Shown here: positions 3,415-60,528 of the stretch, one piece after another
Position numbering within the stretch: the first letter of the stretch is position 1
Layout of the letters: each line of letters opens with the position of its first letter
Notes under the pieces: generated by a model
The model's input: only the letters and a program-made list of their open reading frames with translations
Database searches by the model: none
Told to the model about the DNA's origin: nothing
Made by a program: the position numbers and the translations under genes
Source of the DNA: Liolophura sinensis
Lineage: Eukaryota > Mollusca > Polyplacophora > Chitonida > Chitonidae
Reading direction: 5' to 3'
DNA: 64,000 nucleotides
Assembly (NCBI RefSeq): GCF_032854445.1
Contig: NC_088295.1
Span: forward strand, 54,355,249-54,419,248

Positions 3415-3663
3415 CCAAGGGGCTTAGCATGCCAGCGCAGCGCAATGACCCAGGAGCCCCTCAACAATGCAGTGGCTATAAGTTCAATTCCAGCTCATGC
3501 TGGCTTCCTCTCTGGCTTTCTGGCTGAAGGCCTGTCAGCAACCTGCGGATGGTCATGGGTTTTCCCAAGGCTCAGTCTGGTTTCCTCCCAACATAATGCT
3601 GGCCACCGTTCTCAACATTCTTGATTATGGCATAAAACATTAATCAAATAAATGAATAAATAA
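3415..3663 (+). mobile_element. tRNA-derived SINE, family A (diverged copy)
   Basis: Family A has a tRNA-like head (A box TGGCTCAGTTGG, B box GAGTTCAAGTCC), a body containing CCTGCGGATGGTCGTGGG and CATAATGCTGGCCGCC, then AGTGAAATATTCTTGAGTAC and a tail of AAAT repeats. This copy starts inside the head and keeps the body and the AATAAATGAATAAATAAA tail. It ends about 90 bp before the proposed acceptor of the first coding CHK1 exon. Confidence 0.85.
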
Positions 3664-3755
3664 AAGTGATGACTTTCATACAAATCACAAAAAACAAAAC
3701 ACAAAACAAACAGATCCAATATGCTGTGTTACTGTATCATATGTGTCTGTTGTAG

Positions 3756-3802
3756 ATGATCTTGTGGGGTCTAGATGCCTGGAGAGTGATTTGCCAATAA
3801 AG
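3756..3802 (+). promoter_or_regulatory. CHK1 leader with short upstream reading frame
   Basis: A splice acceptor (pyrimidine-rich stretch then GTTGTAG) ends at 3755. If it is used, the leader in this exon starts with ATG at 3756, opening a 14-codon out-of-frame upstream reading frame that stops with TAA at 3798-3800, two bases before the CHK1 ATG at 3803. Such a frame could lower translation or depend on re-initiation. The leader extent is inferred. Confidence 0.35.
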
Positions 3803-6800
3803 ATGGTGACAGCCTTTGTGGAAGGCTGGGATTTTGTCCAGACTCTAGGAGAAGGGGCCTACGGAGAGTATGTTCTTATCTTTCTCAGCTTCAGAATTCT
3901 CATAAGCAGTAAATATGGAAATCCGAGATTTAGATTCAGATTTATGGTGCAAAAAATTCTCACTGAAAACCAAGTAGAAATATGAATAGTTCTCTCAGGA
4001 TGTTTCAGATAGTTGCAGAGGTGGTTGAAAAGGTTGAAGAATTACAGTAATATGCTTTATGTTCTTCCGTTTTTTTGTCTTAAGTTGTTGACTTTTCATA
4101 GTTCTGAGTTAAATTTGAAAGTATCAAAATCATTTGTTCAATCCAGCTAGCACATGTATTTTGGTGTTCTAAAAATTGAAATAGATTCAGCATCATTGTT
4201 GTCAACAATGCTATTATTTATGGTTGAGGGTGAAGCTGGCGGTGAACACAGAGACACAGGAAGCTGTGGCCGTGAAGATCATCGATCTTGAGAGAACACC
4301 TGGAGCAATGGATAATGTCCGCAAAGAGGTTATTTTTTTTCAAAGTGTACCCTAAATGACCATAAATTTCGTCCTTGACTAACTTGCCCATTTTACCTCA
4401 TTCTGAGAGTTGTGTTGATTTTATATAGGGGTTTTGAGGTTTGCTTGGACCAGGGGATGATATTCTACTGGAAAATTCTCAAAATAATATTTTGTGATAT
4501 TTATTTGCCACTAAAAAATGCACTTTTGTGGGCGAAATTTTAGGTCGTTTAGGGTATTTCACATAAAGGAGTAGAACAAAGTACTTTCTGAGTGTTTACT
4601 TCTGCTACACAAATTTGTGTATGTTGGCCAATACTTAAGCAGTTACTGACTTGATATCAGCGACAGTGAAATTTATACTCCCCTCAACAATCAGACAATA
4701 GAATATTGCGAAATGAAAGCAAAACAGGCTAAACCAGATCACCCAAGTCAGGTCATGCAGCAAAATAAAAAAATAAAGTGTATTTTTTTTGTCTTCTGCT
4801 AAGTATTCATAGCGGTGAAAGTACTGTAAATAGTAATGTGTTGGGTTTTATTTTCGTCGAGATGCAGCACATTGAGGCACTAGAAATCTTATGAATATTC
4901 TTGAGGGAGACATTACATTTATCAAGAAGCAAGTGAACAAGTTCTTCAGATTTACTTTCATTCGTTTTACACTTTATCAATCATTTATTTTTGTTTATTT
5001 TTTTTTCTTACAGATTTGTGTTCATAAGCTTCTAAACCACGAACATATCATCAAGTTTTACGGCTGTCGTAAAGAGGGCAGTATACAGTACTTATTTCTA
5101 GAGTATGCCAGTGGTGGAGAGCTGTTTGACAGAATAGGTGAGTTTATGTATTAAACTATTCTTACAAGTTGCACAAAGTGATTGGGTGAAAGGCTTAGCC
5201 ACAAGAACAGATGATTTTGCACATGTTTTTTGAAGTTTGAATATAAATATTCATTCATTCAACTCCTACCTTACATTTGTGTACTGTACCTTGTCATGCA
5301 TGTGGATGCTATCAGTCCCCAGAACTCAGAATGTTTGCTTTGCTGTTTTCACAGAGCCTGATGTGGGAATGTCATTGCCTGATGCCAGCAAGTATTTCAA
5401 ACAGCTCATAGGTGGAGTAGTAAGTTTCTAGCCTGTTTGGAAGATATGGCCAACGGAGAATTTAAAGAAATATTTGAGTTTACTGATCACTGATTTTAGT
5501 CAAGTATGGCTTTATTAGACAGTGTACAATACTAAACTGAAGGCAGAAAATCTATTCTGGTTGAATGCAAATCGATTTGAATCAATATTCATTAAGAAAA
5601 TTGAGAAAAATTTAACGTTTGTTTTCATTTCTTTCAGGAATATTTACACTCACGGGGTGTAACCCATCGTGACCTGAAGCCTGAAAATGTCCTTCTGGAT
5701 GATTTTGGTAATTGTAGCTTTCATTGAATTCAGAATTTTGGTGCTAAGTGTATCATGCAGCTGTGTTATGTACATTGAATATTAAAGTCTGCTACATGTA
5801 ACTGATGTTTTACTGGTAATTGAAGACTTCATTGAATTGAGGTTTTCTCTGCAGAAATTTGGTACTAAATGTATCGCCCTGCCGTGTGATGTTTCATTAG
5901 ATATTAAAGACTGCTAGTGCATGCAGTGCCGCGGTTATGTTGGTAGATGATGTGACCCAGATATAAATTTGGCTTAGGCTCGGTGACAAATCTAAAGGGT
6001 TAGCCCACGCTGGATTAAATGATTAAAGCCCTGGCTTGCTGCAAAGGCCAGGGCCTTGATCAGCGAAGTTCAGATTTGTGTGTTTTTTGGCTGTGAGTTT
6101 TAGTCAGGCTGTCCAGTAATTAATTACAATTGGTTGTTTACTCCATTTCGGGTTTCATTCCCATAAAAACCTGGTCAGTTAGGACCGGCAGTGAAATGTC
6201 ATTATTAAAACATGTATCAAATAAATAAATGAATGAAAGCTAATTGGAACCTGCTGAATTTTCAGACAACCTGAAGATTTCCGACTTTGGACTGGCTACA
6301 GTGTTTCGTCACCAGGGTCGTCAGCGAATGATGGAGAAGTGCTGTGGAACAGTTCCATACCTGGCCCCCGAGGTTCTTGTCAGGAAGCCATACCATGCTC
6401 AGCCCGCAGACATATGGTCATGTGCCATCATACTGGTCGCTCTGCTGGCTGGAGGTTAGTTCATGCTGCACTGAGGTTTCAGTCTTGTTTAGCTGTTTCA
6501 CTGTTTCAGTTTATTACTGTACTCAAAATTACTGAGTGGAAAGACAATTATCAACTTGTTTCAAGGTCCAGAGGTCTTTGAACATAACAAGGAAGATCAC
6601 TGGGACAAGAAAGATTTGTGGGAATGTTTATGAATGACTTGCCTTAGGTTCACTAGGATAAGCTGTATTTTTCTACACACAAAACTGACTGCCGTCATTT
6701 AATTGGAAATATTTTCAAGTGTGGTGTTAAGACTCAACCCAATAGATACCAACTAAGTACTGTACGTAATATTTATAATCAACATGTTTTCTTCATCTTA

Positions 6801-9800
6801 AAACAGAACTACCGTGGGATGAGCCATCATATGCTTGTCAGGAATATTGCGACTGGAAGGAAGGGAAGATAACTCTCAATCCATGGAAGAAAATAGATAA
6901 TCTGGCCTTGTGTAAGATATGCATTGAAGAAGTTCGTGTTTATCTTACAAATGCCTTTTTTATTTTTATTTGTTTGCTGTTTTACTGTCATTCCAATGAG
7001 ACTTGCCACTTCAAATAAGATGATCGACAGTGGCTGACAGTTTTTGACCACAGTCACGTGATGCGTTGTGGATTTCTTTGCCATTGAAAATTACGTGTAG
7101 ATGTATATTTCAGATTGAAGCCTATAACATTGCATGGTTTGAAAGAATGTGTGTACGTTCTATGACTTACTTCATGCTGGCTTCCTTTCCGGCTGTATTT
7201 GGGAAGATCTGGCAACAACCTGCGGACGGGCGTGGGTCCCCCCACCGGGCTCTGCCCAGTTTCCACCCACCATAATGCTGGCCGCCGTTGTAAAAGTGAA
7301 ATATTCTTGAGTCAAATAAATACATAAATCTAAGACTTACTTCTAGCCATAGATTTTTGCAAGTATCCATTTCCAATATACTGTAGAAGACAGGTGGTAC
7401 TTAGCGTACACCCAGACATGATATAACTGTAGTATATACTTCAGTTACCCATCTATAGAAAACTGCAATAGTATAGGTGATAAGGCACAGTTACTGCCAT
7501 TCTTCAACCTTTTTGCATGTTTTCAAGTTGTTTATTAAAAAGGGGAAATAAATAAATAGGTCTGCATAACAGTTTTCAGTAAGCCTGTGTGTTCTGCTTT
7601 TTTTCCCACATTACATGTCTCATATCTTTCAGCTTTGATACGAAAGATCTTGGTAGAAAATGCTAGCAAAAGATATACTATTCCTGATATACAGAAGCAT
7701 CAGTGGTTTAAGAAGAATTTCAACAAGCAGAAGGGTGAGTTGTGCAGGACTCAGGATTTTGGAGAGCCTGTTGATCTATCTGTGGTTGACCATTGCAGTT
7801 GTTGTCTTTCTAAAGCTTTTTATATATGCTGCCTGATGTTAGCAAATGCATCATGATGCCGGTATTGTATCACACATACTTGTATATCATCTTATACTGT
7901 GGCTAGTACTGTCATTACAGATGTTCTGTTTATTATGGGGTCTTTGTAACAATAAATGGTTGACAGTGCTCATATGACTTGTTGCACAATCTAACTTTTA
8001 TTGAAAACCACTTTCCTTCGACCAGTGTGACCAACATACATGTACTTCACACGTGAAAAAGTTTGTCAGTAACTTACCAAAGGTATGTGGTTTACTTCTC
8101 TTTCCTCCGCCTATAAAACTAACCACAGTTGTACTGCTCAGGTGTACATGTGTCTGTAGGTCTGTTGCGACAACAACTCTGTTATTATGTGGACATGTGT
8201 TCATGATGTTACAGGGGCGTTTAGCAGGTTCCCGTCCAATTCCCCCTCCCAGTCACCCACATGTACTGCTCCGTTTAAACGTTTCTGCTCAAGACAAGAT
8301 TTATCGCCACCTGGAGCTGGGTACGTCATTATACATTAGTCTCAGAATAGCAGGTCTTTGTGGTTGGTTGCTAAGTTATGATAATGTAGCGTTCATGGGA
8401 ATGTCAGGGGACTGTGTGGTTACGTCATCGGTCTGTGAAAACGTGTCCCACGTTCACCTGGTATACATTGTAACAATAACTTGAAAATCTAATGAGTTTC
8501 TCATCTTTCCGAGTAATAAAATGCTGTACGAATTATGAAAGTGTGTTGAATATTGTGAACAGTTTCTCTCTCGTCATTGACAGCATAGTTTATGTAGTGA
8601 AATCTCAAAGAGAGAGTACGTGGTATTTTCTCGTCTTGTTGGCCTGAGAATAAGTTGGAAACTACTTTGTTTGCTTCAGGAATGGGAAGATCTCGTGTTC
8701 ACAGCCTGAGGCACGTCTGCTGGCTCCCCCTGGTGACAGCCTGGCAGAGAGAGTGGAGGACGGGGCAAACACAATCAGCTTCTCCCAGCCCCTCCACCCT
8801 GACCAAATGTTCCTGGGTAGCCAGTTTGTGGGCACACCTGGCTCCTCACAGGTTAGTCCCTTAATCTTTCACTCTTAGTTGTGTTAGTTACACTTAGGTA
8901 CTAGTGGATTTCAAGAACATAATTGTTCAAGTATTACAGTCAGGGTGTTTGTTAGGTAGTGGTCAGTGGTTTACTCTGTTTTCCTCCATCCATAAACCTC
9001 TCAGACTCCCATCATATAAGCTACAAGTTTGTGAACACAATGTTAATCACCAATCAAGTAAATAAATAAATGAATCCAGAAGATAATTTACAAATAAGAC
9101 AAGTTGGGCATTTATTAATATACTCTCAAATGAAGCAATTAATTTGTCCATATGTAAATGTTTTCATCAATAAATTGATGGAGAGAATACTGTGAGATCC
9201 TTTAAGGAGAATGACATTTGTACAGATTTCTCTCAGTAACATCATTTACCTTATTGTTTTTTGTTTTTGGAATTTTCTCAAGGGTCATTTATTTATTATT
9301 TCCCTTGTACCATTTTGAATGTGTGACTTTTATTTCAGATAATTTATCTGGTATGGTCTGTATTTCTTTTTAGACACCACTACAAAGACTAGTTAGGAGG
9401 TTGACTCGTTTCTTTGTTAAAACAAACAAAGATGACACAGTGCTACATCTGAGCAAGGCTTTTGATAGGCTGAACTACCTCTGGAAGAAAAACAACAGAT
9501 CTTTGGTAAGTAGCTGGTATTAATCTGATTGGACAGGGTAACTCTTTGAATCACCATGACCTGTTTCTGACATCCATCTTTCATTGATAAGTGACTAAAT
9601 GACTGACTGACTGACTGAAGGAGTCAAGGTCAAAACCACATCAGTGAGGGCCAGATTCAAACGATCGTGACCATCATTAAGCAAACGTAGAACAGGTTTA
9701 CCAAGAGGGCTTCAAGAGTAATAACACTCTCTAGCCTTTGCTTGAGGCTTCTTCTATTATGGAGTAGGACTTTGTACAGTTAAACTCAGTTTCAGTAAGT

Positions 9801-14669: not shown

Positions 14670-15003
14670 GAATGAGTGCCTAGGGTTTAACGTGGTACTT
14701 AACGATTTTGCAGTCATATGACGACGAAGAAGTCCTTAGAGTGCTTATAATGTGCCTCCTTGTTGCAGGACGGATTTCCATCGCTCTTTTATCCCGTGCT
14801 GCTTCACTGAGACGACCTACCGGAGGTAATTAAGCCGCCCCATCCGAGCCATTATACTAACACGGCTCCCCTTAATGCTGAACGCCAAGCAAGGAAGTTA
14901 CAACTTCCTCTTTTAAAGTCTTAGGTCTGACCTGACCCAGGATTGACCCTGGATTTACCGCTTTCGAAGCGGACGCTCTACCAACTAAGCCATCGGGGTC
15001 GGT
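14670..15003 (-). mobile_element. tRNA-derived SINE, family B
   Basis: On the - strand the element begins with a tRNA-like head (A box TGGCTTAGTTGGTAGAGCG, B box GGGTCAATCC), continues through a body with GAGGAAGTTGTAACTTCCTTGC-like and TCGTCGTCATATGACTG words, and ends with AACCCTAGGCACTCATTCAC. It resembles V-type SINEs described from molluscs, but the family assignment is from memory. No clean target duplication was found. Confidence 0.8.
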
Positions 15004-17626: not shown

Positions 17627-17664
17627 TATATAAACACCATCTGACATATTGTACTTCAGTCAGT
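17627..17664 (+). promoter_or_regulatory. Core promoter of arginine kinase: TATA box and initiator
   Basis: TATATAAA at 17627-17634 is followed 31 bp later by an initiator match, TTCAGTC, with a predicted +1 A at 17658. The spacing is standard for a TATA promoter. The resulting leader of 95 nt to ATG 17753 contains no upstream ATG, consistent with high expression. Transcription itself is not shown. Confidence 0.65.
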
Positions 17665-17752: not shown

Positions 17753-18844
17753 ATGTCGTCCCTAGACGAACTTTGGGAAAAACTGTGCGCCGCCGAGGAC
17801 AGCAAGTCTCTGTTGAAGAAACATTGTACTGAGGACGTGTACAACAAATTGAAAGACAAGCAGACGAAATTCGGCGGAACCCTAGCGGAATGCATCAGGT
17901 CTGGGGCAGAGAACCCCGAAAGTGGGGTTGGGGTATACGCCTCTGACCCCGAGGCTTACACCGTTTTTGCGGACTTGTTAAACCCTGTTATCATGGACTA
18001 CCACAAGGTCAAACAACTAAAGCACCCAGCTTGTAATTTTGGCAAAGTAGACAAACTTGACTTTGGTGATCTGGACCCATCTGGTGAGCTCATTGTTTCG
18101 ACGCGCGTGCGGGTGGGACGCAGTCACGCTTCTTATGGATTTCCACCAACACTCACCAAAGAACAACGAATAGAGATGGAGAAGGTGACGAGGGAAGCCC
18201 TGGAGCAGTTGACTGGAGAGCTGAAGGGTACTTACCATTCTCTGGACGGAATGTCCCCAGAAACGCAAAAACAGCTTATGGAAGACCATTTTCTCTTCAA
18301 CGACAGCGACCGTTTCCTGAAGGCCGCCGGTGGTTACAACGATTGGCCTACCGGAAGAGGGATCTTCTTCAACGACAACAAGACTTTCTTGGTCTGGGTA
18401 AATGAAGAGGACCACATTCGTATCATTTCTATGCAACAGGGCGGAGACCTGGCCGCCGTCTACAAGAGGTTAGTCGAAGGTATCAAAGAATTGGAAAAGA
18501 AGTTGGACTTTGCTCGCCTGCCCACATTAGGCTATCTTACGTTTTGTCCCAGCAACCTTGGAACAGCGCTACGAGCCAGCGTCCATGTTAAGATCCCCAA
18601 AGTTGCGGCCATGCCAGACTTCAAAGAAATTTGTGATAAATATCACATTCAAGCCAGGGGAATTCATGGCGAGCACACGGAGAGTGTAGGTGGGGTTTAC
18701 GACATCTCCAACAAGCGCAGGTTAGGATTAACAGAGATTGAGGCTATCCAAGAAATGAGGCAAGGGGTGCAGGAATTGATACGACTGGAAAAGGGAGAGG
18801 AGAAAGCGCCTTCTCCGAAATCCAAAGGCTGCGTTATTCTATAG
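17753..18844 (+). CDS. AK: Arginine kinase, single exon, with C-terminal CaaX motif
   Basis: Phosphagen kinase that reversibly transfers phosphate between ATP and L-arginine, buffering ATP. The 363 residues are uninterrupted. The N-terminal helical domain includes the guanidino-specificity loop [13 protein letters not shown] (57-69). The catalytic domain has STRVRVGRS (nucleotide-phosphate arginines), NEEDHIR (catalytic Glu at 219), CPSNLGT with reactive Cys265, and the flexible loop [10 protein letters not shown] with the second substrate Glu at 307. Family members usually end close to the ELIRLEK helix; here a further 16 residues follow, [16 protein letters not shown]. The last four, Cys-Val-Ile-Leu, fit a CaaX box, and the final Leu favours geranylgeranylation; two nearby lysines could aid membrane contact. 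The lack of introns contrasts with both neighbours and may reflect retroposition or ancestral intron loss. ATG 17753 is the first in the leader. Function is well supported; membrane anchoring is inference. Confidence 0.97.
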
Positions 18845-19450: not shown

Positions 19451-19467
19451 AATAAATCTGCAATAAA
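19451..19467 (+). terminator. Candidate polyadenylation signals of arginine kinase
   Basis: Two AATAAA hexamers (19451 and 19462), about 610 nt after the stop, are the first canonical signals downstream, followed by a T-rich stretch. Use is not demonstrated. Confidence 0.35.
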
Positions 19468-19921: not shown

Positions 19922-20223
19922 CCAACCAATGATTTATTTATTCATTTATATCATTGGTGTTTTACGCCATACTCAAGAGTAGCTAACACTAAAAACAATA
20001 GAAAACACTTATACGACGGCGGGGAGCGGCGGTGGGAGAAAACCGGGAACAGCCTGGGAGGAAAACCGCTTCGCCATCCGCAGGTTGCTGACAGGCTTTC
20101 CCACGTACGGTCGGGGATGGACTTGAACTTACAGCGACGGCATTAGTGAGAGGTTTTTGGGTCATTAGGCTGCGCTATCGCGCTAACCATCTGAGCCACG
20201 GAGGTTCCTCCTGCCAACCAGTG
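19922..20223 (-). mobile_element. SINE family A, near full length, with target duplication
   Basis: Reverse-oriented family A: tail ATTTATTTATT, then GTGTTTTACGCCATACTCAAGAG, CCGCAGGTTGCTGAC, GGACTTGAACTTACAGCG (B box) and CGCTAACCATCTGAGCCACGGAGG (A box end). It is flanked by CCAACCAATG (19922-19931) and CCAACCAGTG (20214-20223), a 10-bp duplication with one difference. Confidence 0.9.
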
Positions 20224-21310
20224 AGGCGAGGGTCCATGGGCCCCGGAAGCTTATGGACCCTATATAGCAGCACGCGCGTTTGAACTTGTTCTAAGAATGA
20301 AAAAATAAACATTCATCTTCAAGGTTGTGATGAAGAAGGCCTATACTGCACATTGGGGCACAAATTTAAGTTTCGGATCGCTTCCATATTTCCCATGTAC
20401 ATACTTACTTTCCGTTGAAATACCGATACGCGCTATGTGAATCGTAAAATATTTACTCTAATAGCGCATGCGGTTAAAGTGAACAATATTTATTATGCAC
20501 TGACCGGAGTAATGAGGCCTGTAGAGGCAGAGAGGTGGTGGGGTAGTACATGTAGGCAAGCGGAACGACTAGCCCAGTCAATTATAGGCGGGCGTCCATG
20601 GGCCTTTAACTTGAAAATATTGAAAACTTGTGTGCTAAGACGAAGATCATCACAATAGGAAGCTACAGAAGTGTCCACAATATCACAAAGGGAATTCCTA
20701 TCCAGCATTACAATAAAAAACCTAGGTAAACTGGATATGTATATTCTTATGTTCTTTGTGATAGAAGACATGGATGCATGGCTTCATAAATATAATTAAT
20801 GACGTACGGCATGGAGAGTGTGATAGTTGGCAAATGGCCACACTTAGCCCGTGAAACATGACCTTTTTTCTGTTTAGCTCAGCCAGGGTTTTGTTCTAAC
20901 TGTTCATGCAAATGCATAAATAGTAGCAATTTACACGCCCCCTTTAGCATTAGCACCGTTTGTATCATCGCCTTGCCGGATGCTGGGTGCTGGAGGATAA
21001 GTGACCTTCCGGAGGAATTACTAGACGTTGGTTTTCACTTGGTTTGAATGCTGAGTTACATTGCCCAATTTTGCAAATTACAAAATTTCAGACACCATGA
21101 CAACATCAACGCTTTTCCCCGAAGTTAAAATATCTAAAATTACAAGGCGTTGAACAAAATAAAGAAATATTTTAACATCCAATTGAAACAGTGAAGAAAA
21201 CAATGAACATTAAATATTTTTTTTGTATGTTTGGGTAGAAAGGTGTTTTTGGGAGTGGGGGGGGGGGGGGGTAGGGGGTGAAGAACATGCTCCCCTACCA
21301 TTCCCCTACT
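20224..21310. other. Intergenic stretch, nothing recognised
   Basis: No gene signal. It includes a G run at 21257-21271 next to family A SINE remnants, and AT-rich sequence otherwise. Confidence 0.4.
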
Positions 21311-21443
21311 TCTGAGACTGCGGATGGTCGTGGGATTCACCCGGGCTCTTCCCGGTTTCGTCCCATCATAATGCTGACCGCCGTGGTATAAGTGAAAAAT
21401 TCTTGAGCACGGCGTAAAACACCAATCAAATAAATAAATAAAT
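21311..21443 (+). mobile_element. SINE family A, 3' half
   Basis: Begins at CTGCGGATGGTCGTGGG and runs through CATAATGCTGACCGCCGTGG, AAAAATTCTTGAGCACGGCG and CACCAATCAAATAAATAAAT. The head and the first half of the body are absent. Confidence 0.85.
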
Positions 21444-22498
21444 CAATTGACAGGTATTCTTTTCTAACTCATAGAAAATTTGCAATGCTATCCATGATGT
21501 TCAAAAGCTGTGGCTGGAAGACAAGGATGTAGAAAATTGAGAAGGTTTTCTTGTTTTTCTTAAACCTTTTCTCCACATCAAAAAATTCAACTTTTCACTG
21601 AGGTTTCCAACTCGCATATAGACTGCAGCTACTCGTGTATAACAATATCATATTCAGGACCTGGTAGAATGTCAATAATAGTTCAGATATTTTGAAAATT
21701 CAGGTCAAGTTGAAAGGTTATTACCTGTACCCGTGCAGAGAGCACAGTATGGTATACTTAGCTCAAGCTAAATGGGCTCGGGCATACTGCTTGTAGGCCC
21801 TCCAGTAGGAACATATGTGCGATACATCTTTTAAAGTTATGAGTCTGCGAATAACTTAGTACGATTGGTGCTTCATAAATCTAAAGAGAGAGTGTTTTAA
21901 TTGGTGATAAAGATTTTACTCATCATTGAGACATTTTTTGGACGAGTTGAAACACAATCGTCCGTTTCAATGCTCAAGGGAAGGAACTCTTGAATCTTGA
22001 CTCAGCAAGTGTTTACAATTAACTCCCTTTAGTTCTCCTCATATCCGGAAGCGGCAATCACAAAGATGCGCAGATGCTGCTGGTTGCTGTCAGATTTGAC
22101 GCGGGGATGAGGCTGCATTCGCACATGACTTACTGACTTTTGTGTCGCTCATCACTTTCCAGTTGTTAATGTAAATGTAAGAGGGCTTGAATGAAACCGT
22201 GATCGAGCTGGTTAATCATTCAGAGGTTAGCTACGCTGGGCCAAGTAAGTATAGCTTTTTGAGCGAGATAGATATCTGTCAAACATGACTGTGTGGTGTC
22301 ATAGGTTTGGGTCTTGGAACAGTTGTTCCTTTGGCTGCCTACATCAGAGCAGTGCAATGCTCTTAACGAACACAAGCATGTCTCGTTCTAAAGGAAAAAT
22401 TGTAACCTAAATGTACGATTGTCGTTGATTTTAAAAATATATATATACATATATCCCGTGCTAAGCCCCTTTAAAATTTGAGACGGGCCCATGTATAA
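21444..22498. other. Intergenic stretch, nothing recognised
   Basis: No coding family, RNA gene or placed repeat was found on either strand. Confidence 0.4.
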
Positions 22499-22769
22499 GG
22501 GCGCCTCCGTGGCTCAGTTGGTTAGCGCGCTAGCACAGCGTAATGACCCAGGAGTCTCTCACCAATGCGGTCGCTATGAGTTCAAGTCCAGCTCTTGCTG
22601 GCTTCCTCTCCAGCCATAGGTGGGAAGGTCTGCTAGCAACCTGCAGATGGTCGTGGGTTTCCCCCTGAGCTCTGCCTGGTTTCCACCCACCATAATGCTG
22701 GCCGCTGTCATATAAGTGAAATATTCTTGAGTACGGCGTAAAACGCCAATCAAATAAATAAATAAATCT
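22499..22769 (+). mobile_element. SINE family A, full length
   Basis: Complete copy: GCCTCCGTGGCTCAGTTGG head with A box, GAGTTCAAGTCC B box, body with CCTGCAGATGGTCGTGGG and CATAATGCTGGCCGCTG, GAGTACGGCGTAAAACGCC and the AAATAAATAAAT tail. A short possible target duplication, TATAAGG, lies at both ends. Confidence 0.93.
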
Positions 22770-23929
22770 TCCTATATAAGGCGAAGATACAGTAATTAGA
22801 TATGTTAGTTTTGAAAACAAAAACATGCATTTATGTCAATGTATTTTATATACAGTACCACTTTGCACTGAAGCAAGTAAGAACTCTGACCCGACCCTTT
22901 TACAGCTGCATGTTATTTGTTATTGTCACACTTACACAGACACAGTGCTGGTGTTGCAAATATATATTCTAGACATAGATGGCAGAAATGCCGTAACACT
23001 ATTTATATACTAACTATAAATAACAAGGTACATAACTTCAATGCCTGGGATAGAAGACCCATCATAAAACACGAAAAAGTAGTCCAATCTCAACCAAATA
23101 TCATGCCTTTGATAGCTGACACATTAAGCTTTACATTGATGTATGAATCAGGGAACAAACATGCTTTCGTTTGGCTACACAAAGCCGGAAACCTGTATAT
23201 TGGTAAGGTTTTCTATTTTAGTCTGACAATTCCGATAACAGGGAAACTACCGTCAGGTGACAGCTCTGGCTTGATTTCTCTGCTATGAAAGTCACTGGAG
23301 CCACTGTATTTTATCATTGACCAAGTGAAATGTTGTTTTAATAAAAAACTTGTAAACACCTTGATTGGTTACGCTCTATAAAAGTTATGCGGCTGTCTTT
23401 GTCTTTTACTCCATAAAGGTACAGCTGTCAGTTCAACTTGCATCCATAAAAGCTTTGCTCTGATTGGTCACTTATTTGTTTGCAAGGACTGTAAAAATTA
23501 CTTTCGTCATGAGCATATGAATGTGTTGAATATTCTGAAATATACAAAAATAATTTGCATATCCATATAGTATATTAATGTCTCAAAATGTGGTGGAGAT
23601 CATCCAGGTGTTGGCAGACATTTAAAGAATATACAGTTTGCATCAAGGTTGGTTTACACCTGGTTATTGTCAGTTTTCAATGAACGACTAGTATTCAAAG
23701 AATCTTAAACAGGCATTGAATATTTTTTTTGGATTTTTTTCAACCCAATGAAAGTTTAGTGAAACTTGATTTTGACAGGGCTTCAACACCAGCTAGGCAG
23801 TATATGACAGAAAAAAGTTGTGGATGTTGGCAATGAAAGTCAGAGTGACCAACAATTTATAGATGCTTTCCAGAAATTAGACACATCAGAACAATATTAC
23901 CTCTTATACTGCTTAAACTGTTGGTGCAG
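22770..23929. other. Intergenic stretch, nothing recognised
   Basis: A 123-codon open frame on the + strand (22917-23288) has no recognisable domain and is probably chance. No splice-framed exon with family similarity was found. Confidence 0.35.
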
Positions 23930-24083
23930 TTGTACTTTTGAACGCCTGTAGATCAGCAAACTGATGATGGTTGTGAGTTTCATCCTTGCCCTGCCTGGTT
24001 TCCTCCCACCATAATGTTGGCTGCATTGCAGTATTCTTTGGTAGTCCCAAACAAAGTAAAACTTGATCAAATAAATAAAATAA
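23930..24083 (+). mobile_element. Diverged SINE family A 3' half
   Basis: GATGATGGTTGTGAGTTTC, GGTTTCCTCCCACCATAATG and a closing GATCAAATAAATAAAATAA identify the element; many substitutions and gaps mark it as old. Confidence 0.7.
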
Positions 24084-26675
24084 CTGTTGATACAATAGGC
24101 CTACTATCATTTACGAGGATTGCCAGCTCAGTATCTGTGGGTTTGTCTCATGGGTGATTCCTCAGTTACAACGTGTGGCCACTGCCGACGGGTTGACCTG
24201 TGACCCAGTTCAGCTCGCTTGCTGATACAATAAGGGCTCCTGGCTCAGGTCACTGTCTCTGGATGGGTTATGCTGGCGACGTGACCGCCAGGTAGATGTT
24301 TTCAAAATTACAACAGCATTGTTATAGGCTGGGATTCATGCTAAGTTTTTAAAACTTTTCTTTCTGACCTAAAGATTGCATACGTCTGATAAAACCCATC
24401 AGCTCCAACACTACACTTGAATAATTGTACTGATTTTGATACGCCCTCACCAGTAGGCAGAGTGTATTAATACTGAACTCCATCATCCAAATAATTTGAT
24501 ACTACCGAGATGTGTTAGTCATGACATTAGCTACAGTTTTGTGGTGTATCGTTATTTGATAACATAATATCAGTTTGGACTGCAGATTGAACTGCTGTGT
24601 TAGATATCAATATCATATATCCAGTCAGTTTACAGCTGATAGATCACACGGTACTGGTATACTTACTTAAGTACATAGATAAAAGAAGGAGTAAAATTTG
24701 TATAGGATATGTGTTCAGTTACAGGTCAAGTTTGACTTCTATTCTATCCCAGCATCTTGTGTTGGAAATGATGTGAAATAGTGTTACATTTCCTTGTTGC
24801 TCCTCAACATATTCTGGGTAAATGTTTCTGTAAGTCAGCCACCAGTTTTCTGGCAGCCTTTGGTGTTTACCTTTTGAAATGTTTATCCTTGTTCATATAC
24901 ATGTATGAACTTATAGCAGTCTTTATTCCAATATGAAGTAAACCCCATCTGTCCACTCAGTGGTCAGCAAGCAGTTGAGATTGGCATTGAATGGTAATGT
25001 CATTGATTATGTGTAAAAAGCTTCTTCTTGGAGAATGCATGGGCGTGTGTTTGGTAATTAATTCATGTAAACTGGTGGACTGGATTACAGTGTCGGGTTG
25101 GTGACTCATTTCACAGAACTGCATGACTAAGTCGGTTCCAATGAGCTGTGGAATGGTCATTGTGCGTGTGGATGGATGTAAAGCTAGGCTAACCCACAAT
25201 CTATCAGACTCTCCATCTGGATGCGTTAGCCTACGGATGAGTATGTAATGATCCTAATTACACATATATATGTGTCATGTTTAACTAAACATCTGACACA
25301 ATTAGGCATAAGCATTGTAGATCATTCAAGATCAAAGTTATAATGTAGTGTAGTCTCTTCACATTTATTTTTTACTGCAAATATAGAAATGTCCTTATTC
25401 CCATCTCTACTCCATCATTCATGACCTCCAGCTGATGCTGTAACAGTGACCTTCAACCAATGTTATAATGTTGACCCCCAACCAGTAATAGTAATGCCCA
25501 AACATTGTTGTAACAGTGAGCTCCAACAAGTGTTGTAACAGTGAGCTCCAACAAGTGATGGAATAGTGACCTCCAAACAATGAATGACCGCCTTCAACTG
25601 ATGAGTGGTTTCAAAATAATACTGTTTTCCCAAGACTGTGAAGTACATATTATTCGTTGGAATTTATTTTCGTGGATTTACTTCAAAAATGGGTGAATGG
25701 AAATTAATTTTCGCATATTTAATCAAAGCAAAATCTTGAGAAATTGTCTTAGTTATGATATGGCCGAAATTACACAAGTTTGTCAAACAGGTATTATCAA
25801 GGGTGGCTTTGACCCTCTTTCATTTCCCGCGATGTCGCTAATCCTGGATTAGAGATTAAAACCATGGGGGATGTATTATAGATATGTAAGATTGCCTTGA
25901 ACCTACTGTGAGCAGTATTCAGAGAGTTGTCACTAAAATTCGCACCTTTGATGAGTCATTTTAATCAACAACCAGTATTTCAACCCCAGTCATCCATTCT
26001 TGACTAACACAATCAAGCAACACGATTAGTTCCATTCGAAAATTAAATACTTCACAGTATATTGTCACTAGATGTTGATTTTGGTGGAGTTGCATTTGAT
26101 TCCGAGCTAATCCTGGGCCTATATTTCCAAAAATGTCAGTTAAGAGAATTATAAGGGGAAATCCGTGGTCTAAACTGTGAAAATGAGGCAATTGCAAATA
26201 TTCCCACAATGCAGCATTCGTTTATGGATTGCTCACGTAAACATGATAGCGAATTATAAGTCAAGTAAACCAAATATGATCTTCCTTTCTGTCAAACTTT
26301 GTTCAGCTGATACATATCCCTGCATAAAAATAGAAAGTATATTTTTTTGATTTAATTTAAAAATTTTTTTTGGCATGAATTGTGTTTGAAGAACTTGTAC
26401 AATCATGTTAAAATCTGACTGATTTGTCATTTGGCATGTACATATTGAGAAGTTTATCAGATGCCATATGCTTGTGAAGTGGTTTGCCTTCCCTGGTTCC
26501 CTCCTCCGAAATTGTACAACTAACTAAAACAAAAACAAACATTAAAGCTGACAAAAATGTACTCTCTGACACTTTAATCCATAAGTAATATTGATGTTCA
26601 GCACCTGTTTGTGTATTAAAATGATGTGTTCATATCATGCTGTACATTGGATCATCCAGTGGCCTCTGTGCCTAT
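24084..26675. other. Intergenic stretch with a degenerate tandem repeat
   Basis: Mostly unrecognised AT-rich sequence. A loose tandem repeat of about 25-30 bp occupies 25425-25590 (GTGAGCTCCAACAAGTGTTG and variants such as GTGACCTTCAACCAATG), roughly six copies, two of them nearly identical. Confidence 0.5.
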
Positions 26676-27034
26676 GCATTCGCTGTGAGTTCCAAGTCCA
26701 GCTCATGTTGGCTTCGTCTCTAGTCGTATGTGGGAAGGTTTGGCAGCAACCTCAGTATGTTTCCGTGTTCCCCCTGGCTGCATCTGACGTATACCTTGTT
26801 TGCACGGCCAAAATTTAAACCGGGTCAAATCTGAAGTGGTTTAAATCGAAGCCAGTTGTAAAAGACTAAATGCCCCTACTTTGCGTTCACGTAGGTAACG
26901 TCAAACTGGCTCAAAGCCACTTTAGCAAGTTAAACCAGCTTAACTTTGCCCATGTGAATTGGGTATTATTTGCTGTATAAGTGAAATATCCTTGACTACA
27001 GCGTAACACACCAATCAAATAAATAAATAAATCT
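26676..27034 (+). mobile_element. SINE family A interrupted by a foreign segment
   Basis: The B box and body (GTGAGTTCCAAGTCCAGCTC, TATGTGGGAAGG) break off near 26786 and the 3' end resumes near 26970 (TATAAGTGAAATATCC, CACCAATCAAATAAAT). The roughly 180 bp between are unrelated and have weakly inverted ends (GCACGGCCAAAATTTAAACC against GGTTTAACTTGC and CATGGGCAAAGTTAAG on the other strand), suggesting a nested MITE-like insertion that also replaced some SINE bases. Confidence 0.65.
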
Positions 27035-28558
27035 CACGACACCCACACTGAGTTGTCTAGATAGTTCATTCCTGGTTGACCATGAGGTGTTGTGGCTTCT
27101 GTCATATATTTATTATCCAAACAAAGACTGATATGGCTGTAAATATGCTCAGGTGAAATTTTTGACATTTTGACAGACTTGCCTGGCTTCTGTGAGTTGT
27201 TGGCAGTTAACACAGGCCCTGTTTACCTGTTATGTTTACCTTGATATACATGTACCACACCTGTTACCGTGACTGTTCACACAGGATGTGTTAGCTGTCC
27301 CTTATAGTATTAAATAATACAACGATTTGCACAGCAACAAACAGCCCAGTTAGTCATTGATTGTAGATCTTTTTGTGGGTCAAACTTTTGACATCTTCTC
27401 TTTTAACATGGGCCATTCGATTAACAAAGCACCAAGTGCATCCACCGCTAGTTTTTTGGTTTTTTTTTTTAAATTCAAAAACTGATTTGTGATCCTGATA
27501 AGATTGTGGGTTTCTCCATGTAACTGGCATCAATTTGTTATAAAGTGACAGTAAAAATGTTCACCAGCTCATCTGACAGATGTGTTTTAACACATAAGCT
27601 GTTCATAGATATCTCGAGAATGTATTTACCGTCATAAAGACAAACAGCTTGTCAGTAAGTCCATATTCACACTTTTTGACTACAAAATGTCTACACATAT
27701 TAAAGATTACTGTTTAATTTTTACGTTTATCCATATCATATGTAACTGGAAGGAATCCCTGTCCTTTGATTTTCCCCACAGCCGTTCAACTGCATCATTG
27801 CCAGACCTCATACATTTCGGGTGCATTTCTGAAAACTCCAGGAAGTGCAGTGTCAAATTAAACGATAATGACATCACAAATTGGCAATGCACTGAATACT
27901 CAAGTAATATGGTTGCCAATGTTTTTTTCTGGCTTACAGAATGTACAGCTTTTAATACCACCAAGAAGACTGGCTCTTCAACGGCCAGAACTGACTTAAT
28001 GAGGTGTTCATCCCCTGATGCTCAGTGATGTAATTCTAACACATCTTGCTCTGCAGCTTAGCAACTGAAGGATATTCCCACTGCCAACTTTGCCTGGTGA
28101 CTCACTTTTTGCTTAGCTTTACTTCTACATGTATTTCTGAATTTAAAAAAAAAATAGGCCAAAATCAGGTGTTATTAAAAGCATTTTGCCATTACGACAA
28201 TCATCCTGCAGCACAGAACATATTACGCAGTCCTGAGGGATGGTTACAGAATTGTCTTATGACAGTGCTCAAGTCCCTTCTACTCTGACATCTGATGGTA
28301 ACCTGCAGCATGGAGCCTGCCATTTAGATCCTAGTTCCACTGCATGACTCCCTGTGGCATAAATGGTAGAATGTTGGTTATCCGTGTAAAGCGGTAATTA
28401 TGGCAAAATACAGTTATTTTTTATGTATAGATGTACATGCGAGTGGAGAAATTTTGGAGCAGATCAAGAAAAAGTGTCATGTTACACAGACAAGTAAAAA
28501 AAACAAAAACTATAGACAGGTAGCAACTGTGAATATGATTTTGTAGATCAAAGTACCT
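27035..28558. other. Intergenic stretch, nothing firm
   Basis: An open frame at 27687-28028 begins a stretch after an acceptor-like TTTTCCCCACAG (27769-27780), but its product matches no family that I know and no donor partner in frame was found, so no gene is called. Confidence 0.35.
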
Positions 28559-28952
28559 AACAAACTTAGAGCGAGTGAGTGAGTGAGTGCTTGGGGTTTA
28601 ACGTCGTACTCAACAATTTTTCAGTCATATGACGACGAAGGAATCTTTAGGGTGCATGTACGTGTAATGTGCCTCCTTGTAGCAAGACGGATTTCCACTG
28701 CTCTTTTATTTAGTGCTGCTTCACTGAGACGACTTAACGAAGGCAAGTAAGCCACCCCGCCCGAGCCATTATACTGATACAGGTCAACCAGTCGTTGCAC
28801 TATCCCCTTCATGCTGAACGCCAAGCGAGGAAGTTACAACTTCCTCTTTTAAAGTCTTAGGTGTGACTCGATCAAGGATTGATCCTGGATCTACTGGTCC
28901 TGAAGCGGACGCTTTACCAACTGTGCTATCCGGGCTGGTGAACAAAGTTAGA
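28559..28952 (-). mobile_element. SINE family B, full length, with target duplication
   Basis: The head on the - strand is at 28880-28940 (tRNA-like, ending at CGGGCTGGT on +), the body includes TTCAGTCATATGACGACGAAG and GAGGAAGTTACAACTTCCTC, and the tail is GAGTGAGTGAGTGAG on +. It is flanked by AACAAACTTAGA (28559-28570) and AACAAAGTTAGA (28941-28952), a 12-bp duplication with one change. Confidence 0.92.
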
Positions 28953-29695
28953 ATGGACATGTAAATTTTAGCCACAGACTTGCATTTGGGAGCTGAATAA
29001 AATGCATGAAGCCCCCAATTTTTTTTTTGTGTAAAGCAGTTTTAAAATTTGTCCACATCAGTCTGTATTAAATAACACATGTATGAAAATGACAGTTTTG
29101 ACATTTGTTTTCTTATGAGAGGACTTTAAGAAAAGCACCCTGATTATGAAGACAAAACTATTTTGGATTGGTTGTCAAACTTCAGGGTTTCAAAATGTCT
29201 AATTAAGGCTGTTATCCAGCAGCGTTGCTTGGGTCCATGTCACTAGTCCTTTACCACTTCTGGTAGTTGTTTATCAATTTCATGATAATGGAAAAGAAAA
29301 AAAACATTGAAAAAATGGAAAGGAATGTACTGGATTTGAACCCTAGACTGCCAGATATCATTTACAATTTGCCAAGGACTGAAGACTAGCACAGAGATAA
29401 GGCGGCTTTGATCATTTGCTGAAAGCCCAGGACAAAAGACAGAAGGTCAGTATGTTGTTGCAAAGTTGTTACCTAGAGCAAAAGACAGAAAGAATACATT
29501 TTTGCAAAGCTGATGCCCCTTCCTACCTTAAACAGCAGTCAGTGGTTTCATGCAGTCAAGCTCAAAGCTCCCATGTTGTTTACAAAGGGTAGTTTTGTCA
29601 AATTGGTGATAATATGAAAACAACACAGTACAAAAATAATTTTTGCAGATTTGTAATTGTGACGTCAAGGGGCGTCGGATAGTGTGTTTAATGAT
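28953..29695. other. Intergenic stretch, nothing recognised
   Basis: AT-rich sequence with A and T runs; no gene or placed repeat. Confidence 0.35.
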
Positions 29696-30187
29696 TTTAA
29701 AGGAAAAGACCTCTAAAAGTCAAAGTAGGCATCACTAAATAGACCACTTAAGACTATGCACAAATATACTTTCATTTATTTTTTAGATTTTTGTGAAGAG
29801 AGTTCAAACCTTTGAATTCTGAGGTGGAATTTATGGACCATTATAACTATCAGAGTTCAGGAACACAGACTTCACAGGAAATTTTTCCAACTCTAATCAT
29901 GACACTGAATGTTCGATTAACTCTTTCTACACGAGTAAAAGATTACTGTTAAAAGATTCCCAAAAGTTCCTGCCTTCTGGTGAACATCAGGAAAAAGGTG
30001 ATGTGATGTCAGAGTTCCTAGATAATGTCAGTATAGCTCATAAAGCCCACCTTATTATTAAAATATTTCAAACTTTCAACACCTTAAAAAAATCTAAAAA
30101 AAGTAAATGAAAGTATTTTTATGCATAGTTTTCAGTTGTCTGTATGATGAACCTTACTTCGCATTTTAGCTTTCTTTTACTTTAAGC
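29696..30187. mobile_element. Long inverted-repeat (foldback) element
   Basis: Two arms of about 200 bp, 29696-29895 and about 29985-30187, are reverse complements at moderate identity around a 90-bp centre. Matching words include ACTATGCACAAATATACTTTCATT against AATGAAAGTATTTTTATGCATAGT, and TTCAGGAACACAGACTTCACA against TGTGATGTCAGAGTTCCTA. The outer end TTTTAAAGGAAAAGA resembles the terminal repeat of the element at 38152. It is read as a decayed non-autonomous DNA transposon. Confidence 0.65.
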
Positions 30188-33679: not shown

Positions 33680-33884
33680 GTCAGTGCGGTCGCTGTGAGT
33701 TCAAGTCCAGCTCATGCTGGCTTCCTCTCCGCCCGTAAGTGGGAAGGTCTGTCAGCAATCTGCGGATGGCCGTGGGATTCCCCCGGGCTCTGCCCGGTTT
33801 CCTCCCACTGTAGTGCTGGTCGCCGTCGTATAAGTGAAATATTCTTGAGTATGGTGTAAAACACCAATCAGATAAATAAATAAA
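33680..33884 (+). mobile_element. SINE family A, lacking the first part of the head
   Basis: Starts just before the B box (GCGGTCGCTGTGAGTTC), then GTAAGTGGGAAGGTCTGTC, GCGGATGGCCGTGGG, TAGTGCTGGTCGCCGTCG and CACCAATCAGATAAATAAAT. Well preserved. Confidence 0.9.
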
Positions 33885-34329
33885 TATTGATAATGTACAC
33901 AAGATAAAACAAGAATTTTGTCAGATGTTCATGTCTGCATAATAACCTCCTTGACCACCACTTGCTCAGTGGCTTGCCAGGTTGTCTGTTGGTCTACCTT
34001 ATATAGTGCTGCTAAGATGGATAAGCCAGCAGTACTACACATGATGTATTGGTACGTCAGGTGTACTGGTGAGGGCATGCAGGCCTTAATGTGGTCACTG
34101 CCTGGTTGATAAAGCCAATGATCCGATTGCTACAGACCAATTAGTCTCAGCTCTTGCTTTACGAATTAAAGACAGATCGTCAGTAGGAGTGGACTCCCTG
34201 CTGTAGCCCGCAGACATATGCTGAGTTTGTCTGCCACCTTAACCATTGCTTCCAACAACTGTAAAGCTACTTCAGTTAGCTTATCCCTCCATCCACGTTT
34301 CTCAGACGTTGCTTTTATCCTCTTTGCAG
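33885..34329. other. Probable promoter side of TULP4, no feature resolved
   Basis: Sequence composition rises in GC towards 34330. No TATA box or clear first exon can be assigned. Confidence 0.3.
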
Positions 34330-34585: not shown

Positions 34586-37500
34586 ATGCATGTCCACTTT
34601 GAGGAGAACAGTTCGTCGCGCTGTGACTGCACCATTCATTGCCTCTCCTGGATGGGCAAGGTGCCCGACACCCTGCCCGATGAGGAGGGCTGGAAGCTGA
34701 ATCGCACCCAGTACTACCAGGAGGGCTGGCTGGCTGGAGGCAATAGCAAGGGCGTAGTGGGAGTCACCTTTACCACCAGCCACTGCAAGAAGTATGACCC
34801 ACCTGCCAGATCCAACTTTAACCTGCGAGGTCATCGCAGTGAAGTAAGTATAAATCACCGTATTTTGCCTAAAATTTGGTGCTGGTATGTAAAAGTGAAC
34901 GTAAATGGCTGAAAATAATACTTTTGAAAACAATGCTTTAAGTTTTTGTGCTAGGAATTACAAGAGAAAAAAACCCTTTAAATGTAGGCAAAAGTTGGAT
35001 AAATCAATCAGAATCAGTCAAAATGAATTACTTGAAATGTGGTGAACTTTATGTGAATATGGTTTCTTGAGTTTGTTTTTAAAATATGAAGTAATTTTGG
35101 TAGAATTTCATTACCTCTTCAGATGATCCCCAAAAGACTATATGCACTGAATTAATGCTGGCAGATTTTGTACATTCACTTTAATTGCCAAGTAAGGTTA
35201 CACTTGGTTTTTAGAGATTTTCACGAATTGTTTTTCAATATTATATAGTCTACGGTCACTCCTTTAAGAAGGGATTTTGTAGTTTGTTTGTAAAATTTTG
35301 ATGCCAACGCTTAAGCTTTTGTTACAGAAATTAATCAAGTTGCACACACGAAAAAAAACTCTTTAAATGGCCGTAAATGGTGGACGAGCCAATCAGAACC
35401 AAACTAAATGTATTACTTGAAAAATGCTGAACTTTATTTGAAATATTGAATATGGTTTCTTGAGTTTTTGTTTTTTAATTTTAATTTAATGAAATTTTGG
35501 TAGAATTTCATTACTTCCAGTGATCCCCACAAAACTGTATGCACTGAATTAATGCGGACAAATTTTGTTCATTCACTTTAATTACCAGATAAGGTTATTC
35601 TTGGTATTTAGAAATTTTCTACAGTGTTTTGTTAAAGAAGGGATCTTTGTTTCTTGTTTGTGAGCCCACTTTTTTTTCTGCTTTGATGAACTTCTAGTGT
35701 AGTGAACTAGATGTCTTTCTGGTGTAAATGCTTTTCCAAGAAGTCAGTCTTGCATTTGCATGTCATATAAACATGTATGACAGCCCGGTGACCAGAACCA
35801 AGAAATGATCTTTGTGCTCTTTTGCGCTACTGCCATGTAATGACCCAGTAGTTTATTACCAATGCAGTCGCTGTGAGTTCAAGTCCAGCTTATGCTGGCT
35901 TCCTCTCAGGCTGTATGTGGGAAGCTCTGCCAGTAACCTGAGGATGGTTGTGGGTTTCCCCTGCGCTCTGCCTGGTTTCTTCCCACCATAATGCTGGCCA
36001 CCATCGTATAAGTGAAATATTCTTGAGTACGGTGTAAAACACCAATCAAATAAATACATAAATAAATAAATAAATGATTTCAAATTTCAACCGCAATATA
36101 CAGTGGAGGGCCCATATGTAGGATGTGAATATGTATGTACTTGTATGGGTGTATGTCTTGGTCACATGCAATACGCATGGGATATCATTCCTCAAATATA
36201 TATATGTATTTCTCTTGGTCATATCTACATGAAGTGGATCACAAGGTTGGTTGCCGTACATAAAAGTACACATACCTTGTAGTTTATCAAATTTTAATTT
36301 AGAGGCTTAATGAATAGGGATGACTAAAAATGGACCCGAGCTCATTGAATATCCCGTCTTTTTTAGATGCCTCATTCATTGATATTGGAATGTGCCCACT
36401 ATATCCAGAGGGTTATTAACGAGTGTTGATCGACTTGCACATTATTATTTGAATATTTAGATAGAAAAAGGATTAATTACTACTATCTGTTGCAGTCCTT
36501 AAAAACAACATTGTCAAATCTTGATGGAAAGGCATTTGTTACAACTTCAAAAATGAAGTTAAAAGCTTAGCACTAATACTCTGCATGATACAGACCAGTA
36601 TCACAGCTTACATCTCTATGTGGTTTGATGTTATCAGTATAAACTTCACATGTAAGTGTTCTGATGTATTGTTTGTGTTACACAGTGAACATCATTAACT
36701 GAAATAAAAAAAAATTGATAATCGATTGCCTTTGTCAAGGCCCTACCTGGCTAAGACCTGCAGTCGTTTTTGCTTGAACATTCTATTTTACTTTTATACC
36801 TTATAAAGCTGACTGCCATCATATCAGTGAAAAAATCTGGACTACAGCATTAAACAGCAATCAGATGAATTAAATACTGTATTTGATCTAAAATTTTGCC
36901 TCTTCTCAGAGTACTGGTCATAGAAATATGGTTTGATTTTTATTTAGAAGGTTGGATTATATTCTATTGGACAATTGCACCAAAAGTAAGCCTTTTTGAC
37001 CTTTATTTAGCTCAAAAAATGGACTCAAATTTTTAGGGAAAATACAGTAAACAAACATTCCTTGCCTTGTTGAAAAGTAAACCGTCGAACGGTTAATTGT
37101 CGTCATATGACTGAAAAATTGTTAAGTACCACGTTAAACCTCAAGCATGCACTCACTCCGAATGGTTAATGCAGAAAGACAATGTTAGTATGTCCTTGCT
37201 GGCCATGAAAATTTAATACAGTGTTTACCATAGTACACAAAGGAAATTAGTGTTGGAAGAACTGTGTACCATGGTGACTGTAACCAGTGCAGCCAGGGTG
37301 GTGGTGTACTCTTGGTTTCCTCCAGTCATAATTTGTCCTGTCCGATGTTGTATAAGTGAAAAATGTTCGATACAAACACCAAGCAAATAAGAAAATAAAT
37401 ATTAGGATCTTCAAATTGGTTTGAAAGTTTCACAAACAATTCTATGTTATTAATAGCAGTTTACTGTATGCTTTAAGGACATGATCTGAATAATGGAGCT

Positions 37501-59000: not shown

Positions 59001-60528
59001 CTTGGTCTATGGAAAATCCACATCACCTTGGTCTATGGAAAATCCACATCACCTTGGTCTATGGACATACCACAACACCTTGGTCTATGGAAACACCACT
59101 ACACTTCTGTCTATGGAAACACCACAACACCTTTGTCTTTGGACATACCACAACACCTTTGTCTATGGAAACACCACCACACTTTTTTCTGTGGACACAC
59201 AACACCTTGGTCTATGGAAACACCACAACACCTCGGTCTGTGGAAACACCACCAAACACTGCTTACGTCTGTCTAATTCTTGTTACAAGTTGCACCATAT
59301 TAGACACCAAACACAACTATATAATATCACCAAGTTGATCTTTATAACATTTTATTATAGTTTCAAAAGCCCATGAAGGACTCCTTTGCTTAAAGAAAAC
59401 AGGAATGTAAGTTTAAGAATATATATGTTCAATATATTTCATTCATTAGCATTAAAAACCTGTAGAAATTTTCTGAAGATAACCATTAACTATATGTATG
59501 TGCATGCACCTCAAGCTTTATTAGCTTTCAATCCTTTGAAAGATATTTTCTAAAAGCTCTACACCATTGACGGTGCGTTCAAAGTGAGTTTGTCAGTTTA
59601 TCTGACATAATGGAGTGCATTGGCTAACATATTGTGTTTCCTCTGGGTGGACAGATTAGGGATGCCATACTTAGCACATCACATAATTCCTTCCCCCAGG
59701 GACTGAGCTTAAAGGCCTCAGTTCTGCAGGTAATCACACTAAAAAATCAATAAACTCATCTCTTATGTGTATACGTGTATGTAAGTGTGGGAAAAGCAGT
59801 TGATTTCTGACAGCGTGAAATGCATTTGGGAAAAAAAAACTCAATAGCAGACTTTTGCATGATCTCTGACTGAAGTACACCTGTGTAAAAAAAAAACAAA
59901 CTCAAATTTGGGTGTGATGTAAAGAAGCATGAATTCTGAGTGAAGTAATTTTGGGTGAAAAGCTTAAGACCAGACTTGTGCATGATTCTTGACTTTTGGA
60001 TGAAAATCTTAAAATCAGATACGATATATGTCTGACTCAGGTATATTTGGGTAGGAAAAGCTCAAGGGCTGTGTGTGTAAGATTTCTGACACGTTCATGT
60101 GAGTAAAAATATCAAAAATCAGAATCATGCACGATGCAGTATTTTTATGTAAAGCTAAAACAAGAACACCATAGATGAGATTGTGTATTTGGAATCCAGT
60201 TCCGCTCTACGTATGCAGACAGTTTGCACAGCGGTTTTTTTTCTTTATACCCCGATAAACTGTAAAAAATAGTACAGTTAATTCTTAAGAAATATAAACA
60301 CATATTCATAACTGGACATGTCCATGAATAACAGTGTCCATAATTGTGTACACGTAGGGTTGTGCATACAAGGTATTTGCAGTGCTTTTAGCATTGTTTT
60401 TTTTTCATATGCTCTATCAACTGAGCTAAAGGGTAATTCCCACTAGCTTCTGCTAGTATAAGCACTGGAAAGCTGGTCCAGTTACACTCCTCCCCACTTA
60501 AATCCACCCCCCCCCCCCCCCCCCCCCC

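Follow-up and report, generated by a model that had tools for sequence, protein, structure and literature searches.

Why should an arginine kinase end in a CaaX box, and is such an end a signal or an accident? Phosphagen kinases are usually regarded as soluble, local supplies of ATP being ascribed to binding partners or to mitochondrial isoforms. The question is raised by a gene in a 64,000-nucleotide stretch of DNA (the window) from the chiton Liolophura sinensis, described in an earlier note, made from the letters alone, as encoding an arginine kinase with a 16-residue tail that ends Lys-Gly-Cys-Val-Ile-Leu, the cysteine being residue 360. The reading frame, the protein domains and alignment to solved chains all bear out that description (Table 1). 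From the evidence of sequence set out below, we consider it likely that the product is a geranylgeranylated, membrane-tethered arginine kinase, that the same type of enzyme exists in this chiton in a two-domain form, and that a second phylum is thus represented.

The frame is open from ATG to TAG, and its protein scores over the cut-off for both Pfam ATP:guanido phosphotransferase domains (PF02807, N-terminal, 5.5e-29; PF00217, C-terminal, 4.1e-79). Among solved single-domain relatives, the best arginine kinase scores 6.8e-128 and the best creatine kinase 2.1e-82; 7ews, a distant chain named arginine kinase, falls below the creatine kinases. The full list of solved structures is topped by a two-domain taurocyamine kinase, because both of its domains match the window protein (its domain 1, taken singly, reaches 418 bits; the best arginine kinase has 430). 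The gene would specify a catalytically ordinary arginine kinase. An AlphaFold model of the protein, made with seven sequences from the chiton's own genome as input, had a mean pLDDT of 41.7 and was unusable. Around the frame, the TATA-like and initiator-like motifs were recognized by eye from their consensus sequences and, like the two AATAAA sites, would lie at ordinary distances from the gene.

Other features of the window and genome may be mentioned here. Exons of a Chk1 checkpoint kinase lie upstream of the arginine kinase gene (window 3656-7853, plus strand). Minisatellites occupy 57079-59252 (26 bases), 401-1149 (42), 62229-62688 (21) and 47809-48098 (20), and overlap long open frames whose appearance is that of repeats, not of genes. 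A weak match to the tRNA family at 14937-14992 on the minus strand (34.1 bits, E 0.0024), not reported by ARAGORN, is perhaps a tRNA-derived repeat. Recurring frames were seen by eye on the minus strand (21143-21442, 22533-22835, 33684-33920 and 35859-36086) and on the plus strand (51838-52092 and 53750-54001); they are probably copies of a single dispersed repeat seen in its two orientations. Outside the window, eight haemocyanin beta-sandwich domains stand in tandem at C8:37880506-37891931, haemocyanin of this type being molluscan.

Table 1. Features of the arginine kinase gene (window coordinates) and of its relatives elsewhere in the genome (C-numbered coordinates)
Feature	Location	Strand	Basis or remarks
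TATA box-like TATATAAA	17627..17634	+	by eye; putative
TCAGT initiator-like site, about 30 bases past the TATA-like box	17656-17660	+	by eye; putative
Arginine kinase coding sequence, single exon, 363 residues	17753..18844	+	frame, Pfam domains, solved relatives
16-residue C-terminal tail, extending farther than solved arginine kinases	18794..18841	+	alignment to solved chains
CaaX box Cys-Val-Ile-Leu (TGC GTT ATT CTA), then TAG	18830..18841	+	sequence; CVIL is a GGTase-I substrate in print
Two AATAAA polyadenylation-like signals (19451, 19462), about 610 bases 3' of the stop	19451..19467	+	putative
Fused two-domain gene, 731 residues, intronless coding sequence	C4, matches 1548857-1550983		two of the 13 matches
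Neighbour of the fused gene, about 7.5 kb away, on the opposite (minus) strand	C4:1558520-1559569		
Three arginine kinase genes	C6		end ...KLEKSA
Intron-bearing gene, five exons	C1:50088489-50096569		ends ...KLEKAA
Broken phosphagen kinase-like stretch, 43% identity, five in-frame stops	C8:27790322-27790822		not among the seven complete genes

How much of the end is truly additional? Alignment with solved single-domain arginine kinases (about 356-362 residues) reaches residue 347/348 of the window protein, and the solved chains stop 1-3 residues past that point, so that some 13-15 residues are extra. The codon for Cys360 occupies 18830-18832, and CVIL has the make-up of a GGTase-I CaaX box: a cysteine fourth from the end, an aliphatic residue at a2 and a terminal leucine, with the stop codon next. 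The refined motif described in the available portion of PMC1175975 also calls for 11 residues of flexible, hydrophilic linker, richer in lysine where GGTase-I is the enzyme. The linker of the window gene is largely of this kind, its 11 residues including none that are hydrophobic, three lysines and two acidic residues; in the fused two-domain gene the corresponding 11 residues include no hydrophobic residue, three Lys/Arg and one acidic residue. Neither protein has glycine at position 2 (they begin MSSLDEL and MADLGQL, respectively), so there is no myristoylation signal to compete.

How do the other arginine kinases of this chiton end? A search of its own genome with the window protein (609 Mb assembly, 632 contigs, only the best candidates being scored) gave 13 matches, which include seven complete arginine kinase genes; the window gene was the sole 100% match (C1:54373001-54374089). 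Two of the seven end in C-x-Ile-Leu, the window gene with CVIL and the fused gene on C4 with CSIL (...RLEKGGELKDDKQSETKKHSDKPTTTRSCSIL); the box of the fused protein follows the second domain, the sole place where it could work. No box is present in the other five, all of which stop soon after the last helix (the neighbour of the fused gene ends ...RLEKGGELK). Coding-region introns were found in only one of the seven, and their absence from the remaining six suggests that these arose via retroposition. Searches for relatives gave 3 pattern matches in IMG/VR and 14 in contigs of prokaryote genomes, none of which was confirmed.

The significance of a second box depends on how often such ends occur by chance. 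The last four residues were counted before 4139 stops, each preceded by at least 16 open codons, the count covering the window and five loci in the six possible frames. With the two arginine kinase genes included, C-x-[VILTFMA]-L stood at 13 of the 4139 frame ends and a stricter form at five; with these genes removed, the counts were 11/4137 (loose), 3/4137 (strict) and 2/4137 (C-x-I-L). If the gene number is of the order of 20,000-30,000, which is our assumption, tens of such ends are expected genome-wide by chance, and a lone case would be unremarkable. What raises the box above chance is its recurrence among the six remaining arginine kinase proteins: the probability of at least one such end among them is 1.6% (loose), 0.4% (strict) or 0.3% (C-x-I-L), the loose figure being the safer because the patterns were drawn up after both ends were known, which flatters the strict ones. 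The CSIL box of the paralogue is the strongest new evidence for a signal.

These counts bear directly on the idea that the box is accidental, a stop having been lost and the frame having run into random sequence that happened to finish CVIL, with the lipid never added or idle. Ends of this kind are frequent enough for some to be expected in a genome, and five of the seven arginine kinase genes manage without one. On the other hand, chance would have had to supply an equivalent box in a second arginine kinase gene, together with two 11-residue linkers free of hydrophobic residues, which random read-through seldom gives; moreover, an exposed C-terminal CVIL would be a likely substrate whatever its origin. 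We therefore regard an accident as unlikely, and a functional signal as the better account of the two ends.

The two boxed genes are not recent copies of one another. The window protein shares 85-87% of its amino acids with the two domains of the fused protein (dN about 0.10), and dS is beyond estimation (NG86 returned -1 and YN00 no value), the silent sites being saturated; a dN so low at saturated dS indicates that both genes are old and under strong constraint. The same comparison, along with 363 intact codons and the existence of five other arginine kinase genes that are likewise intact without coding-region introns, makes it hardly credible that the window gene is a pseudogene or an assembly artefact, as might be supposed from an intronless coding sequence (such as retroposition leaves) in DNA known from one assembly. 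The linkers before the cysteine differ in length (12 residues in the window gene, 24 in the fused gene) and barely align; despite this, both genes finish with the same Cys, Ile, Leu and stop. The box would have been either inherited and kept or gained twice, and either history would favour a function.

Trees of the family are weakly resolved and do not tell the two histories apart. In the full-length tree the window gene falls with the box-less clade of C6 and intron-bearing genes (support 73), as it does in the tree of the C-terminal part (support 59), whereas the N-terminal part places it with the fused gene at a support of only 47. On these trees the two boxed genes need not be sisters, and we do not claim a single shared gain of their tails. 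One reason for this weakness is that the neighbour and both domains of the fused gene have exchanged sequence, which makes single trees unsafe. In DNA compared by blocks of 30 codons, the two fused domains are 100% identical in seven blocks running (about codons 121-330), which points to recent gene conversion. The neighbour shows 92-98% identity with the second domain in the final five blocks, which run from about codon 210 as far as GGELK. Directly after GGELK the neighbour has its own stop, so that it has the beginning of the tail but lacks the box.

Could the terminal residues instead, or in addition, form a ligand for PDZ domains? Ligands of the Val-Ile-Leu type belong to class II and those of the Ser-Ile-Leu type to class I, so each of the two ends would suit a recognized class. 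The P-2 residue, however, which sets the class, is valine in one protein and serine in the other, and the residues that they have in common, Cys, Ile and Leu, are those that a CaaX box would be expected to keep, as far as two sequences can tell, since its a1 position is said to face the solvent and to be free of constraint (PMC3017772; but see the a1 effect given below). A PDZ ligand seems a very improbable reading, and prenylation remains the preferred one.

Would the box be prenylated? In the available portions of the papers cited here, human GGTase-I gave a full shift of CVIL in an assay in yeast, which was read as complete geranylgeranylation, and CVIL was shifted without human FTase (PMC11152559); among four boxes with tabulated values for Arabidopsis PGGT1, it had the top kcat/Km (PMC3017772); and it is the natural C-terminus of yeast Rho5, and was de-enriched in a yeast Ydj1 screen although gel-shifted (PMC11304957). 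The available text of these three papers contains no occurrence of CSIL. Human GGTase-I did respond to the identity of residue a1 in a CxIM series of which CSIM was a member (PMC11152559). As to the enzymes, exons at C8:47863241-47870711 match solved GGTase-I beta at 1.5e-80 and FTase beta at 1.1e-17, while FTase beta-like exons, classified by eye only, lie at C6:2034605-2043269. The genome also gave six matches to prenyltransferase alpha-type repeats and one to ICMT. The Rce1-like family model, which detected its target in 11 of the 14 prokaryote controls, gave no match in this genome, where genes match only one exon at a time. A geranylgeranylation signal, as the earlier note proposed, is still the best reading of the tail: CVIL is used by GGTase-I elsewhere, the linker largely fits, a paralogue has a box of its own, and GGTase-I beta is encoded.

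It might nevertheless be that the lipid on the protein is mainly farnesyl, or that FTase and GGTase-I both use it as a substrate, or that the lipid serves protein-protein contact or ciliary carriage and not stable residence in a membrane. CVIL is also a substrate of FTase in vitro, and an a-factor form ending in CVIL bore both lipids in vivo (PMC1175975, in the portion available); the kcat/Km values given for CVIL in Arabidopsis (0.5 for FTase, 0.029 for PGGT1) would lead one to expect farnesylation from kinetics alone (PMC3017772), and the chiton has the FTase beta-like exons noted above. Against this, the same source notes that most boxes ending in Leu receive geranylgeranyl in planta, and there is the behaviour of CVIL in the yeast assay, where human FTase was dispensable and human GGTase-I sufficed for a full shift. 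Variants of this kind seem to us quite improbable, and we continue with geranylgeranylation.

The following sequence of events can be envisaged. The arginine kinase would be made in the cytosol, where GGTase-I would add a geranylgeranyl group to Cys360; the terminal Val-Ile-Leu would then be trimmed and methylation would follow, as is usual. The lipid and the nearby lysines would hold the enzyme on the cytoplasmic face of a membrane, so placed that phosphoarginine could regenerate ATP beside membrane users of ATP, for instance ion pumps or proteins of the ciliary membrane; cilia, synapse and plasma membrane are the candidate sites put forward in the earlier note. The two-domain paralogue may act likewise through its own CSIL box. 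Modification in vivo, membrane binding, enzyme activity and the role and site of ATP supply are all features that we infer for the two proteins.

Several proteins unrelated to arginine kinase (yeast Rho5, a rice CaM61 tail reporter and MIEN1, whose box we take to be CVIL) have the same box and are described as geranylgeranylated in the portions of the literature available. Closer to the present case, the title of Chouno et al. (2015; reference 182 of PMC6429109) reports a prenylation signal in arginine kinases of the feather star Tropiometra afra macrodiscus, so the statement in the earlier note that no prenylated arginine kinase had been described has to be given up. The feather star enzyme is likewise an animal arginine kinase with a prenylation signal; it belongs to another phylum, and the title names no two-domain form. 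No prenylated arginine kinase of a mollusc was found in the literature searched, most subscription papers being outside its reach. Within that literature, such enzymes are already known from one other animal, and the molluscan phylum and the two-domain form appear to be new. A bolder notion, which we offer tentatively and would not ourselves expect to hold, is that prenylated arginine kinases constitute an old branch of the phosphagen system that is bound to membranes and has been overlooked, with members in echinoderms and in molluscs, among the latter a fused two-domain enzyme held by one lipid; such a branch, if real, would be a membrane-facing counterpart to the soluble enzyme.

Two further comparisons are instructive. 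The two-domain arginine kinases of clams (Solen, Corbicula and Calyptogena), as far as the sources available describe them, have the fused form of the C4 paralogue, whereas the window gene is single-domain. In Trypanosoma brucei, the AK3 paralogue of arginine kinase is sent to one compartment, the flagellum, by a terminal extension, much as the tail of the window protein may direct it to a membrane, the difference being that the extension of AK3 is an N-terminal insertion and that of the window gene a CaaX box (PMC4517888, in the portion available). The presence of a box in two diverged paralogues of a mollusc, taken with the feather star report, suggests that some animals may site ATP regeneration on membranes through prenylation.
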